A stretch of DNA of 64,000 bases, taken from assembly GCF_016734805.1 (NCBI RefSeq), contig NZ_JAERQG010000001.1, positions 1,302,001 through 1,366,000 of the forward strand. Direction: 5' to 3'. Origin of the DNA: Marivirga atlantica. Lineage in GTDB: Bacteria; Bacteroidota; Bacteroidia; Cytophagales; Cyclobacteriaceae. Positions 29,503 through 51,731 of this stretch are shown here, one piece after another; position 1 is the stretch's first letter, and each line of letters starts with the position of its first letter. The notes beneath the pieces are model-generated. The model was not told the origin of the DNA, did no database searches, and saw only the letters and a list, made by a program, of their open reading frames with translations. The position numbers were made by a program, and so were the translations under genes.

Positions 29503-29916
29503 TTATAAATCTAACGACCTGATTTCATTTAAAGCATTTTCTGTTAATGGCTTTGTAATGAACTTTATCACGTGATCGTTATTAACGATTTTATCAATAT
29601 CTCTTTTATTATCTGAGCTGGAAAGAATTATTACTTTACACTTGTCTTTAACTGTGTCAGTAAATTTTTCAAATTCATATAAAAATACAAAACCATCAAC
29701 TATGGGCATGTTGATGTCAAGAAAGATAATATTTGGTAATTTATCTGGATCATTCTTGTGCTCTTCAAGATACTCTAAGGCACTTTTTCCAGAATTTTTT
29801 ATTTCAACGGTCTTAGCGAATTCGGTAATTTCAATGATTCGTTTACTGATAAAGTTATCAGTATCGTTATCATCTACTAGCATCACTAAATCAACAGTTT
29901 TTGTAGCTGTTACCAT
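29503..29916 (-). CDS. Single-domain response regulator
   Basis: A 137-residue stand-alone receiver. The acidic pair DD in VMLVDDNDTDNF, the phospho-acceptor Asp in NIIFLDINMP, and the conserved Lys in FITKPL are all present. There is no output domain. The DNDTDN start is characteristic of Rcp1-like receivers that pair with kinases carrying the SHDLQEPL H-box; such a kinase lies at 40392-41510, but pairing over that distance is only a guess. A good -7 box is found 124 bases upstream of the ATG. Confidence 0.9.
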   Translation of the reverse strand: MVTATKTVDLVMLVDDNDTDNFISKRIIEITEFAKTVEIKNSGKSALEYLEEHKNDPDKLPNIIFLDINMPIVDGFVFLYEFEKFTDTVKDKCKVIILSSSDNKRDIDKIVNNDHVIKFITKPLTENALNEIRSLDL

Positions 29917-39927: not shown

Positions 39928-40392
39928 ATGGATCAGTTAACAGAGTTTTTTCAAAAGCTATTTGATACTAGCGATTGGCCTGCCCGCTGGTATTGTGGTG
40001 AGTGGAGCGATTTTCATGGATGGCTTTATATTTTTAGTGATGTAGCAATTTGGCTTGCCTATTTCTTTATTCCCATGATAATCATCTGGTTTATTCAACG
40101 TAAGCCAAATGTTCCATTTTTACCGGTGTTTTGGCTGTTTGGTGTTTTTATTATTTCATGCGGAGCAACACATTTTTTAGATGCCATAATTTTTTGGTGG
40201 CCTGTTTACCGCCTAAGTGGCTTACTCAAGTTTATTACCGCAATAGTGAGTATGTTAACAGTGTTTGCGCTCATACGCGATATGCCTAAAATAATGGATT
40301 ATAAAGAAGATTTACTAAATGAAATTGCGAATAAAGACGCTTTGATTGATGAATTAAGAAGAGAGATAGAAGCTAAGGGAGATAATTACTGA
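39928..40392 (+). CDS. Stand-alone ethylene-receptor-type transmembrane domain protein
   Basis: A 154-residue membrane protein with three helices (about 32-57, 64-90, 95-117) and a short charged helix at the C-terminus. It aligns without gaps to the ethylene-binding domain of plant ETR1. All seven residues known to be needed for ethylene binding in ETR1 are conserved: Asp38, Tyr45, Ile48, Pro49, Ile75, Cys78 and His82 (ETR1 Asp25, Tyr32, Ile35, Pro36, Ile62, Cys65, His69), with the CGATH copper-site motif intact. No GAF, PAS or kinase domain follows in this protein. It overlaps the next gene, a histidine kinase, by one base (TGATG). Binding of ethylene via Cu(I) is inferred, not shown. Confidence 0.9.
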   Translation: MDQLTEFFQKLFDTSDWPARWYCGEWSDFHGWLYIFSDVAIWLAYFFIPMIIIWFIQRKPNVPFLPVFWLFGVFIISCGATHFLDAIIFWWPVYRLSGLLKFITAIVSMLTVFALIRDMPKIMDYKEDLLNEIANKDALIDELRREIEAKGDNY

Positions 40393-41510
40393 TGCGAATA
40401 GGAAAAAGGAACGATAACATTCAATCAGTAGTATTATTGACAATGGCTTTAGTGTTGTCAGGTATAATTTTTATTGCTGATATTTTCGTTTCTTCGCATA
40501 TTGCTGTAAGCGTACTTTATTGCATAGTAATATTATATAGCTGGTTACTACCGGGGAATAGAACCACCGTTTATACAGCTATTTTCTGTACAATTTTAAT
40601 TTTCATTTCGGATTTCTTTGGCGATGAGACTTACAACATTAAAGACGTTTACTTGATCAATAATTTCATAGCGTTTATTGCTATATGGATTTGTGTTGCT
40701 TTAGTCAGTTTGGCTAAACATGGTTTTAAGAGTTTTGAGAACTTAACACAGTCCTTAGAAGATGAGGTGGAGAAGAGAACCTCAGAATTAAAAAATGTAA
40801 GCTTAAGAGAAAAAAGAAATGCTAATCTACTCGCTACAAAAAATAAAGCCTTATCTCAATTTGCACATGTGGCATCTCACGATTTACAAGAACCTCTTAT
40901 AACAATATCGCAAACAACGGAGCTCATTAGTAAGAGGATTAATAATAGCGATGACAGGTTACTAAATAAGTACTTAGAGTATCTTCATGGCTCAACCACA
41001 AAAATGCAATTGTTAGTTAGGGGTTTAATGGATTATTCCAGATTGGGGAGTCATTGGGAGCTGCAAAAAGTTGATGTTAATAACATTATTACTGAGCTGA
41101 AACATGAGGTGCTGAATAAAAACAGGCATATAAAGGCTAATCTTTCTGTTAAGAATACTTTACCAAAAGTTTCGGCAAATCGAGAAGATTTAAAATTGCT
41201 TTTCCAAATATTGCTAGACAATTCATTGAAGTTTAGAGAACATGGAGCGGAAGTTAAAATTGAAATTGATGCTATTTCAGATGATGGATTTTGGGAGTTC
41301 ACTTTTTGCGACAATGGTATTGGCATTCCAAAACGTTATCAATCTAAAATATTTGTTATTTACAAAAGACTCAATAAAGAAAAGGATTATGAAGGAATTG
41401 GTCTAGGCTTATCCTTAGCGAAAAAAATTATTGAGCTGCATGATGGTGAAATTTGGGTAGAATCTGAAGTAGAAAAAGGAAGTACATTTCACTTCACCAT
41501 ACCTAAATAA
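40392..41510 (+). CDS. Membrane histidine kinase coupled to the ethylene-receptor-type protein
   Basis: A 372-residue sensor kinase. Four hydrophobic segments (about 12-30, 35-52, 57-75, 88-110) form an N-terminal membrane domain without a recognisable ligand site; a coiled coil (LEDEVEKRTSELKN) leads to HisKA with HVASHDLQEPL (phospho-acceptor His163). The HATPase domain has ILLDNSLKF (N box), DNGIGI (G1) and EGIGLGLSLAKKII (G2). No HAMP, PAS or receiver domain. Translation is coupled to the upstream gene, so the two likely act together: gas-binding membrane unit plus kinase. No response regulator is adjacent; the lone receiver at 29503-29916 is of the type that pairs with such H-boxes. Confidence 0.92.
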   Translation: MRIGKRNDNIQSVVLLTMALVLSGIIFIADIFVSSHIAVSVLYCIVILYSWLLPGNRTTVYTAIFCTILIFISDFFGDETYNIKDVYLINNFIAFIAIWICVALVSLAKHGFKSFENLTQSLEDEVEKRTSELKNVSLREKRNANLLATKNKALSQFAHVASHDLQEPLITISQTTELISKRINNSDDRLLNKYLEYLHGSTTKMQLLVRGLMDYSRLGSHWELQKVDVNNIITELKHEVLNKNRHIKANLSVKNTLPKVSANREDLKLLFQILLDNSLKFREHGAEVKIEIDAISDDGFWEFTFCDNGIGIPKRYQSKIFVIYKRLNKEKDYEGIGLGLSLAKKIIELHDGEIWVESEVEKGSTFHFTIPK

Positions 41511-41525
41511 CCTGCCTCAATTCAT

Positions 41526-42365
41526 TTAGAGTATCTTTCTTATATTATTCGCTTGCTCAATGCTCGCTTGCATTTTTTCATTTTCATTATTTTCTATAAA
41601 TGATTTCAATCGCTTCATTTCATTAATGTAAGCATCAATAGCAGCAATCATATGCTCTTTATTAGCTTGGAAAATAGGCACCCACATATCGGCTGAACTT
41701 TTGGCAAGGCGAACAGTCGATTCAAACCCACTTCCTGCCATGTTGAAAATGTTCTTTTCGTCTTTTTCAAGAGCCTGTACTGTTAAGCTCAAAGCAAAAG
41801 AAGTTATGTGAGAGAGGTGAGATACGTAAGTAATATGCTTATCATGAGTGGATGAATCCATGAAAATATTAGTGGAGCCCATTTGCTCGAACAGATGCTT
41901 TACTTTTTGAACTGCTTCTTTATCACTTTCTTCCTGATTGCAAATTATATTGATTTTCCCCTGAAATAAACCTGTGAAGGCAGCCTCCGGACCGGAGAAC
42001 TCAGTCCCGGCTATCGGATGACAAGCTACAAACTGTTTCCTTTTTGGGTGGTTTGCTATTGCCTTACAAATAGCTCCTTTTACTGAGCCAACATCCAATA
42101 TGATGGTTCCAGTTTTTATGAAGTCTAAAATTTCAATTAGTATATCTGAAGCTACACTAACTGGTGTGGCCAATATAATCAAATCTGAAATTTGGCAGGC
42201 TTCATCAAGTGAAACTCCCTTATCTATTATATTCAGTTCAACAGCTTTTTGCAGATTCACTTCAGACCTATCTACTCCAAATGTTTGTTTAGCTAAACCT
42301 GCCTTTTTTAAATCTAAAGCTATAGAGCCCCCTATAAGGCCAACACCTATTATACTTACAATCAT
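41526..42365 (-). CDS. tyrA: Prephenate dehydrogenase
   Basis: Oxidative decarboxylation of prephenate (or arogenate) to the tyrosine precursor, NAD(P)-dependent; 279 residues. The N-terminal Rossmann motif is GVGLIGGSIALDL; VGSVKGAI, HPIAGTEFSGPEAA and DKHITYVSHLSHITSFAL are family blocks, the last carrying the substrate-site His. No chorismate mutase or ACT domain is fused. It overlaps the aminotransferase upstream by 4 bases, so it is the last gene of a pheA-aminotransferase-tyrA operon. Confidence 0.93.
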   Translation of the reverse strand: MIVSIIGVGLIGGSIALDLKKAGLAKQTFGVDRSEVNLQKAVELNIIDKGVSLDEACQISDLIILATPVSVASDILIEILDFIKTGTIILDVGSVKGAICKAIANHPKRKQFVACHPIAGTEFSGPEAAFTGLFQGKINIICNQEESDKEAVQKVKHLFEQMGSTNIFMDSSTHDKHITYVSHLSHITSFALSLTVQALEKDEKNIFNMAGSGFESTVRLAKSSADMWVPIFQANKEHMIAAIDAYINEMKRLKSFIENNENEKMQASIEQANNIRKIL

Positions 42366-46309: not shown

Positions 46310-49300
46310 TCATCTGACCACAGTTACTCCACCACGCTCTTCATAAGTTCGGCCATTATTAGCATCAGTACTGCTAAAAGTAATGATATAGGCATAGGTA
46401 CCTTGAGGTACTGCATTACCATTAGTATCTGTGGTATCCCATTCAAAATCTTTGTCAGTTGATTGAAATACCAAGTTACCCCATCTGTTATAAATGATGA
46501 TTTGGAAATCACCCACATACTCATTTGCAAAAACACTAAAAGTTCTGTTTTGAGCAATGCCACTACCAGGCCTTACTGCATTAGGAGCAAAAACCTTTGG
46601 CTTACAGTCTTCCAGCACTGTGGTTGAAATATTGTATTCGCAGCCAGCAGCTCTAAGTACTACTTCATAAGTACCAGGCTCATTGGCAATCACAGTTCTG
46701 CTTGTTGCTGTGCTACCATTAGGTAAAGTCCATAAATAGGAGCCGTAAGAGCCAGGGTCTAAAGTGACAGCTCTTTCACTTTCAACACCAGTAGAACAGA
46801 TGAAGTAAGTATCTTGAATGGTAGGTTCAAATACTTCTTGCACTGTGATATCTCGAATGATTTCTACTTCTTCGCAGGTCTTATTGCCCTCATCAGAAAC
46901 CTTAAATCTATAAGTATCAGTTGCTGTTATATTCCACTCTGGAACATTCTGAGAAGGATCGGTAGTAGGAATATCATTGTCATTACTGTTTTTTAATGTA
47001 AAGGAATATGGGCCTTCTCCTCCGCTAATATTACCTCTTAATAAAACTGTTCCATCTTCACAGTTGATTTGAGAAGTTAAAGCTACATCTAGAGGTTCAT
47101 AGATACTTTCAACATTAAAAGAGGCCGAATCAGCACAACTAACATTACTATTAGGGAACACAGAAACTCTGTAGGTTCCTGTTTGCTGCACAGTTATACT
47201 TTGGCCTTGCGCACCATTGCTCCAGCTAAAATCAAAATTGGCCGGATCGCCACTTACTAAAAATGCCGTAAGTGTTTGTCCGCCATCACAATTTATATTG
47301 TTTTCAATATTGCTAATTTCTGCTGATGCGGAAATGTTAACAGTTATATCTTCTTCACTATCGCAAAGTCCTGTCTGAGTTGCTGTTATTCTAATAGGAC
47401 CCGTTGTACTAGTAATATTGTTTACATCTGTTGGCATAGGATCGTAATCAAAAGTAACACCAGTAGCAGTGATGCCTTGTAAGTATGCTTCCAAATCAAA
47501 GGTACCACAGGAAGAGACTACAGAATCTGGATTGAAGGCTACAGAATCAGCTGGTGTTAAAGAAAAATCTATTACTCCTAAACAGCCAGCCCCGCTATTA
47601 TCTGTTACCTCAATGGAGTAGTCTCCAATACTTAACGAACCAATAGTAAAAGGCTCAGTAGTCTCTGTTCCATTTGATATCTGAGTTCCTTGCTGGTCAA
47701 GAATGCTCCAATCGAAATCAGGAGTGAATGTCCCAGTTAGATCAACTGTAATTTCCTGATTGTTTTCTTCACAAATATCTGGGGTTTGAGTTACGGCAAC
47801 CGTAAAATCACCATTCTCTCCCAATGGGACAGTTAGTGTGCTATTGCATCCAGTTAAGTTATCAGTTATAGTTATATTATAGCTTCCTGCTTCTAGATTA
47901 GCTGGACTAGTATTAGTTGTATTTTCTGTGACAGGTGTTGGCCCATTCCATGTAATAGTGTAATCTCCTGACCCGCCATTTGTTCCCAACTCAATTCCGC
48001 CTTCCGCCATATTACAATTAGGTATAGTTGTAGAAATTAAACTTAGTGAAGGTGTTTCATTCACTATAACTTCAACCTCGTCCACTGCTACACAATTAGG
48101 GTCTAAAGGATCAGGAATTTCTACTCTGACAAGAAATGTTCCATGGTTAGCTGTAGATAGGTCATAAGTTCTACCTGAAGCTGACATATCTTGCACATCA
48201 TTAACAAACCAATTATAGGTGTTTGCATTTACATTGGCATCTAAGGTTAAAATCTCATTCTGACAAACATTTTGATCAGGTCCTAAATCAACATCGAAAG
48301 GAGGTCCTACGAATATTTCTGCTTCAGACGTACAGCCATTGGCGCTAGTCACGGTTACATTGTAAATGGCTTGTTCAGTAACAGTAATGGTTCTTGTAGT
48401 TTCGCCAGTGCTCCACAGATAAGTTTGTCCGGCAACTTCAGGTATTTCCTGTCCTAGTGTTAAAGTATCACCACAGAAGTTTCTTGGACTTACAATCTGA
48501 CTCAAATCAGGGCTTGCAAATATTTCAATATTTTCGACTAATAAATTATCATATCCGCATTGGTTAGTAATTCTAAGGGCCACTTCATATTGCCCTGGGT
48601 CAATGGCTACATCAACTGTGTCATTTTGCTGGTTTGAAGTATACACACTCGCTGAACCATCAGCAGGCGTAATTGTCCAATTAAACACATCGAAGTTTGT
48701 AGTTCCTGATCCTTGCAAGATAATCGGATCAGATGAACAGGCGGCAATTACATTTATGCTAGGTTCCTGCTCAGGGGTAGATAAATTTTGAATGAAATTA
48801 GGAAGTCCTAAGCGTGAGTTTCTTCCAGATAAATTAAAAGGCTGCAAACTACTGGCCAGGTTAGCTCCCTGATCAGGTTGAAAGCGATTGTCGGCACTAC
48901 CAATAGTATATACATCACCCGAATTATCGGCAGCCGCATAAAGCTGACCATCAGGTCCGGTTTGGATTGCTCCTGCAACAAAGTCTAAATCCGCAACAGT
49001 TACGCTATCCGGATTTTCAATATCGGCAATTGTATAACTATCTAGAACAGGTATTTGAACTAACTGAGATGTTCCTCCATTAATTATTGTGGCATAGAGA
49101 TAATCGGTTGAAGGTGAAAATTCAATTCCGTAAACTTCTCCTCCAAAATTTACATCTATCAATGCAGACTCATAAGCACCTGTGCTGTCAGCTCTTAAAT
49201 AATCAATAAATGCCCCTCCACTATTATAAGCATGAGCTATTTTATCGCCTCCTGCAGCATATTTAATATAGCCTGGCATGCTTTCTTCAGAGACGAAGGT

Positions 49301-51472
49301 TGCACCCTCTGAAACGAAATTAGGAGAATTGATACCTTGTGCGTTCACATCAAATGCTCTGAAATTATTAGTGCCTAGTTCATGCGTTAGAACGGTAGTG
49401 TTATCGGCACCTACAGCAGCAATTTTTTCGAGGTTTTCGCTATAGATCTTTCTATTCTTGAGTACCACATCACCTAAACCATTATTAAGTTTAAGGTCTA
49501 CTAAAGCATATTTGAATGATTTTGAAGTACTGCTTTCATCTTCACTCAAGAAAATGTAATAGAGTGAAGGGTCAACTCCATGAGCTACAGCCAACACACC
49601 TTGCGAAGCAGCTTGGCTACCTCCTAGGTTAGTACCATTAGCCATTTCGTTATGCTCGGAGTCCCATATGGTTTCTCCATTTGTGTAGAATAGTAAGTCC
49701 CCATTGTCATCTGAAACCGTTGCACAACCCTGCTCAGCAATTATATTACCATCAGTAACCGCTTGGGGACCAGCATCACCATTGAAATCAATACCGGCAC
49801 CATCACCAAAGTACCAGAAGTTCGCGAGCTGTTTGCCTTCTTCGAAAAGTGTGAGGGTAAAAGTTGCAGTTACAGTACAAGAACCAACAGTTACTGCTGC
49901 AGAGTAGGTGCCTGATTCATTAAATGTGGCTGTTCCATCTCCATTTACAGTAAATTTCTCCGGATCAGGATTAATCCAGGTGATATCGTCCGGTTGGCCT
50001 CCATCACTTAAAGTAGGTCCGTAGTTCTCAAGAGGAAGTTCACAAACTGTTGTGTCTTGTAATTGTACCTGGCTATCAAACTGATTCACCACTACTGTTC
50101 CGGAATCTATGAAAATATTACCACCCGCATTAACTGTTAACGTAACATTGAAACTACCAGCATCGGGGAAATCAACAATTGGACTTATGGCATTAGAAGT
50201 TTGACCGTTACCGAAATCCCAATTAATTCCTGAAATATCCTCTAAGTCATCATATGAGGCGAAAAATGAGATTGGGTTGTTTTGACAGATGGTAGCATTG
50301 AGCTGTGTATCATACCAGTCGAAACTAACAGGAGCATCTATCAACTGAGGAGGGCTCGAAAACGGTAAATTGCGAGCATTTCCAAAACTGGTTGCATTAA
50401 ATAGATTCCACTGAATGTTTAAAGAATCAGGTATAGAATCAGCAAATTGGATGTTGCTCAAAAATGATTCGGCACCGTTATTATATAAAAAATAAAGTTC
50501 ACCATCAGGGCCATTTTGGAGGGCTAATGCTTCGTTAATATTTCTGTTTAGAATATTTTGAGTTGTTAAACTATCAGGGTTAAACTGAAAGATATTTCCT
50601 TCATTAGTGCTTAGGTTGTTTCTAGAATAGTAGAGATTGCTTCCACCTACTGACCATTCTACATCTGTTATTAATTGATTAAGTGCACCTGTATTGGTAA
50701 GTACCTGTTCGTTCTCAAAATTGGCAGTACTCGGATCAGCCCCTATTAAATCTAATAAAATCACGTTCTTTGGAGATCCTGCTACATTTTCAGAACTGAA
50801 AGCAAATTGAATCGAGTCCTGTCCAATGGAGCGCATGCTTAAGTTATTAACTGCATAGTTTTGTGAGAATGTATGAGATAAGACAGTAGTTAGACTACCA
50901 TCATTATTTATTTGAGCTATCTGAAGTTGATTGTCCGCGGTAGTCTCAAATAGAACATAAAAGCTATCGCCAGCGCGAAATGTCTTTACCAAAGGAGATA
51001 AATTATTGAATCCGGTTGCAACAGGAGCTGATGTTACTTCTCCAAAAGTACCTAATGAAAGGTCTACATCTACATAGCTTAATCCTCGAGAAGCTGTTAT
51101 GAAATACACATGAAAAACTTCATTATTTCCGATAGGAGAAGGGCTAATAGCCACTGGGTGTCTTAAAGTATTATCTCCGGTAATGGCTCCGTCAGGAAGC
51201 ATTTGATGATTCTGACCATAAATGGTTGCTCCATCTGTGTAAAAAAGCAATTGTCCGTTAGTACCTCTTGCAGCTACAGCAGCACCGTTTTGCCCAAATG
51301 GAGTAGCCTGATCATCAATTAATATAGGTCTTCTACCTTGGTTTTTATTGAACTGAATGGCATTGGAGTTGTCTCCGAAATACCAGAAAGACTCGCTATA
51401 TTCCTGTGCGAAGAGTTGATTTCCGAAAAACAGCAGGCTAACGAGAATTGATTTTATGTAGAATTTATGCAT
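46310..51472 (-). CDS. Giant adhesin-like protein with T9SS type B (gliding motility-associated) C-terminal domain
   Basis: Secreted or surface protein of 1720 residues. Signal peptide MHKFYIKSILVSLLFFGNQLFAQ (ATG at 51472; the frame extends four codons to a GTG). The N-terminal half contains two copies of a propeller-like domain, each opening WYFGDxxxxIxF (Trp30 and about Trp552), each followed by a PKD/Ig-like part (first about 380-455). The C-terminal half is a string of Ig/SprB-like repeats (GSYNITITDNLTGC, GDYSIEVTDNS). The last about 90 residues form a gliding motility-associated CHU_C / type B T9SS signal: FQIIIYNRWGNLVFQS, FEWDTTDTNGNAVPQGTYAYIITF. Divergent from PorP/SprF, which such substrates require for surface attachment. 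Function could be adhesion or gliding. Confidence 0.9.
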   Translation of the reverse strand: MHKFYIKSILVSLLFFGNQLFAQEYSESFWYFGDNSNAIQFNKNQGRRPILIDDQATPFGQNGAAVAARGTNGQLLFYTDGATIYGQNHQMLPDGAITGDNTLRHPVAISPSPIGNNEVFHVYFITASRGLSYVDVDLSLGTFGEVTSAPVATGFNNLSPLVKTFRAGDSFYVLFETTADNQLQIAQINNDGSLTTVLSHTFSQNYAVNNLSMRSIGQDSIQFAFSSENVAGSPKNVILLDLIGADPSTANFENEQVLTNTGALNQLITDVEWSVGGSNLYYSRNNLSTNEGNIFQFNPDSLTTQNILNRNINEALALQNGPDGELYFLYNNGAESFLSNIQFADSIPDSLNIQWNLFNATSFGNARNLPFSSPPQLIDAPVSFDWYDTQLNATICQNNPISFFASYDDLEDISGINWDFGNGQTSNAISPIVDFPDAGSFNVTLTVNAGGNIFIDSGTVVVNQFDSQVQLQDTTVCELPLENYGPTLSDGGQPDDITWINPDPEKFTVNGDGTATFNESGTYSAAVTVGSCTVTATFTLTLFEEGKQLANFWYFGDGAGIDFNGDAGPQAVTDGNIIAEQGCATVSDDNGDLLFYTNGETIWDSEHNEMANGTNLGGSQAASQGVLAVAHGVDPSLYYIFLSEDESSTSKSFKYALVDLKLNNGLGDVVLKNRKIYSENLEKIAAVGADNTTVLTHELGTNNFRAFDVNAQGINSPNFVSEGATFVSEESMPGYIKYAAGGDKIAHAYNSGGAFIDYLRADSTGAYESALIDVNFGGEVYGIEFSPSTDYLYATIINGGTSQLVQIPVLDSYTIADIENPDSVTVADLDFVAGAIQTGPDGQLYAAADNSGDVYTIGSADNRFQPDQGANLASSLQPFNLSGRNSRLGLPNFIQNLSTPEQEPSINVIAACSSDPIILQGSGTTNFDVFNWTITPADGSASVYTSNQQNDTVDVAIDPGQYEVALRITNQCGYDNLLVENIEIFASPDLSQIVSPRNFCGDTLTLGQEIPEVAGQTYLWSTGETTRTITVTEQAIYNVTVTSANGCTSEAEIFVGPPFDVDLGPDQNVCQNEILTLDANVNANTYNWFVNDVQDMSASGRTYDLSTANHGTFLVRVEIPDPLDPNCVAVDEVEVIVNETPSLSLISTTIPNCNMAEGGIELGTNGGSGDYTITWNGPTPVTENTTNTSPANLEAGSYNITITDNLTGCNSTLTVPLGENGDFTVAVTQTPDICEENNQEITVDLTGTFTPDFDWSILDQQGTQISNGTETTEPFTIGSLSIGDYSIEVTDNSGAGCLGVIDFSLTPADSVAFNPDSVVSSCGTFDLEAYLQGITATGVTFDYDPMPTDVNNITSTTGPIRITATQTGLCDSEEDITVNISASAEISNIENNINCDGGQTLTAFLVSGDPANFDFSWSNGAQGQSITVQQTGTYRVSVFPNSNVSCADSASFNVESIYEPLDVALTSQINCEDGTVLLRGNISGGEGPYSFTLKNSNDNDIPTTDPSQNVPEWNITATDTYRFKVSDEGNKTCEEVEIIRDITVQEVFEPTIQDTYFICSTGVESERAVTLDPGSYGSYLWTLPNGSTATSRTVIANEPGTYEVVLRAAGCEYNISTTVLEDCKPKVFAPNAVRPGSGIAQNRTFSVFANEYVGDFQIIIYNRWGNLVFQSTDKDFEWDTTDTNGNAVPQGTYAYIITFSSTDANNGRTYEERGGVTVVR

Positions 51473-51731
51473 AGCTAAGCTCACTCAAATTTTAAGATAC
51501 CCATTTAACGTTTAAAGGCATGATTTAATTTTTAATTGTATTAAAATATACAGAATTGAAATTCAGACCGTTTAAACTCAACATCGAAATTAATAAATTA
51601 AATGCTTAAACTGATGGATGATACAAAGCCTTTTTATGTTTTATTTAATCTGTTTAAGTGAATTTATTGTGATTGGTACTTAGCCTTTGTCACTATTTTC
51701 ATATATTTCGACAATTTTGAATACTGTTTGT

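Follow-up and report, generated by a model that had tools for sequence, protein, structure and literature searches.

A putative split ethylene-receptor-type sensor in Marivirga atlantica, made of a stand-alone ETR1-type membrane protein and a separate histidine kinase

The described systems closest to the gene pair reported here are the ethylene receptors ETR1 of Arabidopsis, SynEtr1 (slr1212) of Synechocystis and AzoEtr1 of Azospirillum, which share with it a three-helix binding-type domain, seven residues of the binding site and a histidine kinase. The fused receptors carry the binding domain and the kinase in one polypeptide, the domain being the N-terminus of the kinase (AzoEtr1 is described as an ETR-PAS-HK protein of 525 aa), whereas in the Marivirga atlantica pair the domain forms a protein of its own, and the kinase, encoded by a second, overlapping open reading frame, has another membrane domain. 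SynEtr1 passes its signal to a response regulator, and for AzoEtr1 one is predicted from a gene nearby (PMC11819568). The path from ethylene binding in the membrane domain to the kinase was called obscure for ETR1 in 2019 (PMC6586836).

A separately encoded gas sensor is described in the case of H-NOX, the gene of which adjoins that of a histidine kinase thought to be controlled by H-NOX (PMC10746521). H-NOX and HnoK resemble the Marivirga pair in that a separate sensor gene adjoins a kinase gene, a likeness at most of working and not of kinship: H-NOX is a heme protein, whereas the Marivirga pair consists of two membrane proteins with a putative Cu(I)-type site and no H-NOX domain, the sensor protein containing only ETR1_N. 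By analogy, the trans logic proposed for H-NOX and HnoK may operate here between two membrane proteins. In the case of BceS, another kinase with a small membrane domain, the signal comes from a distinct partner in the membrane; this partner is the ABC transporter BceAB, unlike the 154-aa ETR protein described below.

The pair is located on the forward strand of a window of 64,000 nucleotides, which is the whole stretch of M. atlantica DNA that was analysed. The first gene (positions 39928..40392) encodes a stand-alone, putatively ethylene-binding membrane protein of 154 aa and the second (40392..41510) a histidine kinase of 372 aa with an N-terminal membrane domain. The list of open reading frames showed that the two genes are in different frames and overlap by one base, within a TGATG stop/start at 40390..40394; their upstream neighbour is a minus-strand gene and a convergent gene (41526-42365) is located directly downstream. 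The ETR1_N domain (PF25487) covers residues 30-123 of the small protein (E=4.8e-35; 120.1 bits for a cut-off of 27) and is its sole Pfam match above cut-off; the remainder, beyond the domain, is a helical tail. The coordinates, the TGATG overlap and the domain assignment of the preliminary description were recovered exactly, the last by the profile search against ethylene-receptor domains that it had proposed. Pfam matches of the kinase were PF00512 (HisKA, 2e-08; residues 154-220, 40851..41051) and PF02518 (HATPase_c, 2.3e-24; residues 264-371, 41181..41504), and its H, N and G boxes are intact (H163, N277, D307NGIG and G335IGLGL), the phospho-acceptor His163 being encoded at 40878-40880. The genome contains one ETR1_N copy and 71 HATPase_c matches. 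Farther along the window, on the minus strand, 46310-51484 encodes a secreted-looking protein of 1724 aa, the C-terminus of which presumably resembles a gliding-motility/type IX secretion sorting domain.

We then surveyed ETR1_N in related genomes. At most 11 or 12 candidates were scored per genome in the order, phylum and family surveys, so that weak copies may be missed. The genus survey found the domain in 5 of 10 genomes, with one copy each, and every copy stands alone in a frame of 155-165 aa. In the order survey it was found in at least 85 of 390 genomes and fused receptors were the common form; the short ETR frames of two genomes, G131 (close to the edge of a contig) and G227 (in two pieces), were left unclassed. 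The family survey returned at least 84 matches in 73 of 390 genomes, 23 of these 84 matches being located in frames no longer than 250 aa. Each of these 23 stand-alone frames precedes a kinase gene that encodes the N-terminal membrane domain of the window kinase, when the broken kinase frame of G005, which is only a fragment, and the pair of G015, with an ETR frame cut by the contig start, are included. For the last of the 23, in G963, the gene of the ETR protein is followed by that of a kinase sharing this membrane domain (E=2.7e-39) and then by that of a response regulator. The phylum sample contained the domain in at least 21 of 395 genomes, with a stand-alone copy in the window genome only, among the candidates scored.

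Among the loci collected (L001-L160), an ETR frame was found by phmmer in 156, of which 33 are of 260 aa or less and 123 are longer. Thirty of the 33 short frames are located directly before a kinase frame, with an overlap of one base in 16 pairs, an overlap of four bases in 7 pairs and gaps of 4 to 41 bases in 7 pairs; overlapping genes are thus found in 23 of the 30 pairs. Of the three others, L030 and L089 appear to be fused genes that were disrupted, with kinase-like frames overlapping in another frame, and L103 is on its own. Removal of L108, which is the same as L024, left 29 distinct split pairs. Apart from members of the family and order of M. atlantica, their hosts include Maribacter (L022) and Gramella (L026), both Flavobacteriaceae, and two MAGs, one of Crocinitomicaceae (L032) and one of Chitinophagales (L023). 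Two stand-alone ETR1_N proteins were observed to have no kinase beside them: that of L254 (G399), which looks divergent, and that of L103 (G109).

The split is not a single case, the arrangement being found at 29 distinct loci. The preliminary description had named a lack of linkage to kinases as evidence against its reading; the homologues proved to be linked, at 30 of 33 short frames and at 23 of 23 stand-alone frames of the family survey. Its statement that the system is unusual in Bacteroidota stands for the split arrangement and fails for the ETR1_N domain. Since this domain is common in the order, the Bacteroidota host is not surprising; what is surprising is the conserved split.

The recurrence also bears on the reading that the pair is a broken remnant of a fused ethylene-receptor kinase of the ordinary type, or that a sequencing frameshift has divided the gene of such a kinase; the prevalence of fused receptors in the order would favor this. 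This reading was rejected because the arrangement, including a membrane domain that belongs to the kinase, is repeated at the 29 loci; in addition, the kinase gene starts separately, its product has this domain in the place where fused proteins have the ETR domain, and the kinase motifs are intact. We regard it as extremely improbable.

Comparison of the 154-aa protein with ETR1 showed that D38, Y45, I48, P49, I75, C78 and H82, located on membrane helices 1 and 2 of the model (residues 28-58 and 65-88; 40009..40191), are all present. Y45 is the counterpart of ETR1 Y32. The others correspond to D25, C65 and H69 (given in PMC11819568) and to I35, P36 and I62 (given in PMC6586836) of ETR1. The offset from the ETR1 numbers is a constant +13, so that the seven residues expected of ETR1 at identical spacing were all found. 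Cys78 to His82 (40159..40173) contains the putative Cu(I) ligands, which correspond to C65 and H69 of ETR1 (role from PMC6586836).

The seven residues are exactly conserved in 28 of 29 distinct split rows and in 98 of 119 fused rows, while the Cys and the His are both kept in 29/29 and 118/119, respectively, and are among the most strictly kept positions. Homologues without Cys78 or His82, which had been named beforehand as telling against an ethylene-receptor-like protein, were absent from the 29 distinct split pairs. In ETR1, residues T94, S98 and P110 are linked to signal transmission (PMC6586836). Judged by an inferred offset, their counterparts would be T104, S108 and P120 of the third helix (residues 94-151; 40207..40380), which are kept in 29/29, 29/29 and 28/29 split rows, respectively.

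The strict conservation of the Cys and the His fits a metal site whatever its ligand, and the protein might belong to a split receptor for something other than ethylene, namely Cu(I) itself or a Cu(I)-binding small molecule such as CO or another alkene. We consider this the lesser possibility, although one to be taken seriously: conservation extends beyond these two residues to all seven that ethylene binding in ETR1 requires, and the fused bacterial relatives SynEtr1 and AzoEtr1 bind ethylene (PMC11819568). As for Cu(I) sensing, the list of open reading frames, when inspected by eye, showed no recognisable gene of copper homeostasis next to the pair.

The congener G005 (L015, L174) has a kinase broken by stops in the membrane region and an ETR copy with a shortened N-terminus, which is altered at W42 and P120, positions otherwise kept. 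This is an apparent joint decay, in a single case, of the kind that a dependence of the two genes on each other would produce.

The kinase N-terminal membrane domain (approximately residues 1-115; 40392..40736) was found by alignments, a Pfam scan and profile searches to be common to the kinases of split pairs. The N-terminal 128 residues of 25 split kinases have a mean column identity of 49%, with D30, N90 and L122 invariant, and the remaining split kinases also show the domain in the full alignment. The Pfam scan of the domain in 25 members gave no match better than E=0.0082 among the best 25 of 33 families. A profile of the domain was compared with 59 genomes, including that of the window, and gave strong matches (1.7e-24 or better) in eight, which are exactly the genomes with a stand-alone ETR protein, and weak matches in two others (1.6e-8 and 1.4e-6). 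Strong matches are expected in six of the eight, because these supplied rows of the profile; the informative result is that none of the 59 genomes has a strong match without a stand-alone ETR protein. Among 375 phylum genomes, with at most 11 candidates scored in each, a strong match was obtained in the window genome only, and six others had weaker matches (1.7e-14 to 5.7e-4). The membrane domain is thus part of a wider set, of which the close form accompanies the stand-alone ETR protein in the genomes searched. A Fisher test of this co-occurrence (p=4.5e-10) was set aside as evidence because the genes are linked and the profile is derived partly from the same loci. Among the partner kinases that were scanned, L022, L012, L032 and L005 contain a PAS domain, and none was found in the window kinase.

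Two kinases from among these weaker matches, L256 (G478) and L260 (G154), have a distantly related membrane domain and a response regulator gene after them, as many split kinases do, but no ETR gene in the stretch examined; they may represent an ancestral partner or respond to another input. Kinases related to this type are also found near the split kinases on the kinase-core tree. Since L256 and L260 have a related domain without an ETR gene nearby, the membrane domain of the split kinases may have an input of its own. A stronger form of this reading, in which the kinase would detect a signal of its own and the co-transcribed ETR gene would supply no more than a modulator, or a protein with a separate role, would draw on these two loci and on the stand-alone ETR proteins of L254 and L103. 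It appears unlikely to us when set against the lack of a strong membrane-domain match apart from a stand-alone ETR protein in the 59 relatives and, for the candidates scored, in the 375 phylum genomes, and against the gene overlap that recurs in 23 of 30 pairs.

The model of the ETR protein, made from 50 sequences (mean pLDDT 84.8, pTM 0.64), has three membrane helices, at residues 28-58, 65-88 and 94-151, the third being unbroken and continuing into a cytosolic stalk. The model of the kinase, made from only seven sequences (pLDDT 71.0, approximately 60-70 in the membrane part), has helices at residues 3-30, 40-52, 58-76 and 84-183, the last of which runs into the DHp domain at low confidence. 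This low-confidence model agrees with the four-helix membrane domain attributed earlier to a separate kinase, in that four helices precede or enter the DHp region. Heptad periodicity of the stalk had p<=0.05 in 12 of the 27 tails tested (of 30), and that of the kinase linker had p=0.01.

No convincing relative of the ETR protein was found in the PDB by sequence, and none at E<=0.001 by a Foldseek search with the model. The same model gave nothing at E<=0.001 in BFVD; the best match (E=5.5e-3, probability 1.00, 20% identity) was to A0A8E4UZR7, a viral protein of 289 aa, which, judging from the predicted fold, may be a virus-borne ETR-like domain. The best Foldseek matches of the kinase model were catalytic cores such as those of HK853 and ZraS. 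The model also matched chain D of the BceAB-S complex (8g3a_D; E=2.6e-15 over 340 columns), a match that says little about the membrane part because the better-scoring ones are isolated catalytic cores.

A third gene, encoding a single-domain response regulator, directly follows the kinase in 19 of 27 neighbourhoods (or 18 of 26 if the L024/L185 duplicate is counted once). These operon regulators are mostly of 138-145 aa, and the three that were scanned with Pfam were all Response_reg proteins. The eight neighbourhoods without a regulator are those of the window, L174, L176, L177, L025 and L032, and those of L173 and L023, which run out of contig, L173 with a cut regulator at the contig end. 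Directly after the window kinase there is no response regulator, the next gene being convergent. The closest relative of the operon regulators in the window genome is an orphan located approximately 99 kb away, at G000:C6:1242532-1242924 (50% identity, E=8e-36), beside which no kinase was recognised by eye in the list of open reading frames.

Operon regulators do not form one clade, their 19 rows needing four changes: 13 are in a well-supported group and the rest are found among non-operon copies. The orphan is outside the group of 13, and is 61% identical to the split-operon regulator of L024 and 58% identical to a non-operon congener copy, L248. The congeners G003 and G007 have a non-operon copy besides the operon one, and G002, without ETR1_N, also has one. 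The orphan is only a candidate for the cognate partner of the window kinase, because by sequence it is nearly as close to non-operon as to operon copies and because such a copy is also present in G002. A single-domain response-regulator-like frame is located approximately 10 kb from the pair, on the minus strand (29527-29901; G000:C6:1331527-1331901); it is 35% identical to an operon regulator and is, by proximity, a weaker candidate partner.

The ETR tree was built by a quick method on few columns, with 151 of 156 rows, after five rows identical over the stretch used were dropped. On this tree one change accounts for all 29 split rows. Twenty-eight are in one group (SH-aLRT 90) with L032 beside it, the branch joining all 29 having a support of 33; with this moderate to low support, the ETR domains of split pairs plausibly have one origin. 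Comparison of individual rows showed that the window ETR protein is closest to L025, from a Bacteroidia MAG (73% over 124 columns), and that the copies of its congeners belong to another supported group, of 18. No gene cluster found beside the congeners' copies (L171-L174) is present in the neighbourhood of the window pair, which is neither the positional counterpart nor the closest relative of the congeners' pairs. Its closest ETR relative and its different neighbourhood together suggest horizontal transfer or differential loss.

On the kinase-core tree, which was made with rows of at least 150 aligned residues and includes two kinases twice, from overlapping loci, the 30 rows of split kinases are scattered over more than one clade (seven changes). 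All are in a supported group (98) of 65 rows, together with 31 fused ETR kinases, two own kinases and two with the remote membrane domain, a pattern compatible with gene fission as well as with recruitment of the kinase. There is a correlation (rho 0.82, 28 pairs, L015 and L108 being left out) between the distances of ETR proteins and those of kinase membrane domains, as is also expected of linked genes.

From the reading frames, the domains, the conserved residues and their recurrent pairing, we infer, with a probability of about 0.6, that the pair is one split ethylene-receptor-type sensor in which the 154-aa protein is the ligand-binding subunit and acts in trans on an intramembrane-sensing kinase. 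The preliminary description had proposed such a two-component sensor, with a membrane protein as each of its two parts, and this is supported by the Cys and His of all 29 split rows and by the kinase that follows 30 of 33 short frames. The small protein would hold Cu(I) at Cys78 and His82 and through it bind ethylene or a like ligand. Binding would shift helix 3, which is predicted to continue as a cytosolic stalk of approximately 30 residues. The kinase has a small membrane domain without an evident extracytoplasmic sensor, its last membrane helix leading straight into the DHp domain in the low-confidence model. The two proteins would form a physical complex, in which the stalk and membrane contacts of the small protein would pass the signal in trans to the membrane helices and linker of the kinase. 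Phosphorylation of a single-domain response regulator, the third gene in many relatives, would be altered, in whichever direction the response takes; in the window genome this regulator would be unlinked or lost.

A limited literature search, with the main reviews of non-plant receptors outside it, did not turn up any report of a bacterial ethylene-binding protein that is split from its kinase or stands alone. The new finding is that such split systems recur, often with three genes, have a kinase membrane domain of their own and are plausibly of a single origin. We slightly favor the wider view that a Bacteroidota lineage made the ethylene-binding domain a detachable trans subunit, in a hetero-complex with an intramembrane-sensing kinase and with a single-domain regulator; on this view, ethylene signalling could do without a covalent link between helix 3 and the kinase. 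If the pair is a natural receptor, its separate small binding protein would allow the binding and transmission steps to be expressed, mutated and recombined independently. Possible ethylene-linked or Cu(I)-linked sensing would be extended to many Bacteroidota, and the split form would serve to test whether the same ligand is kept when the binding domain is a protein of its own.
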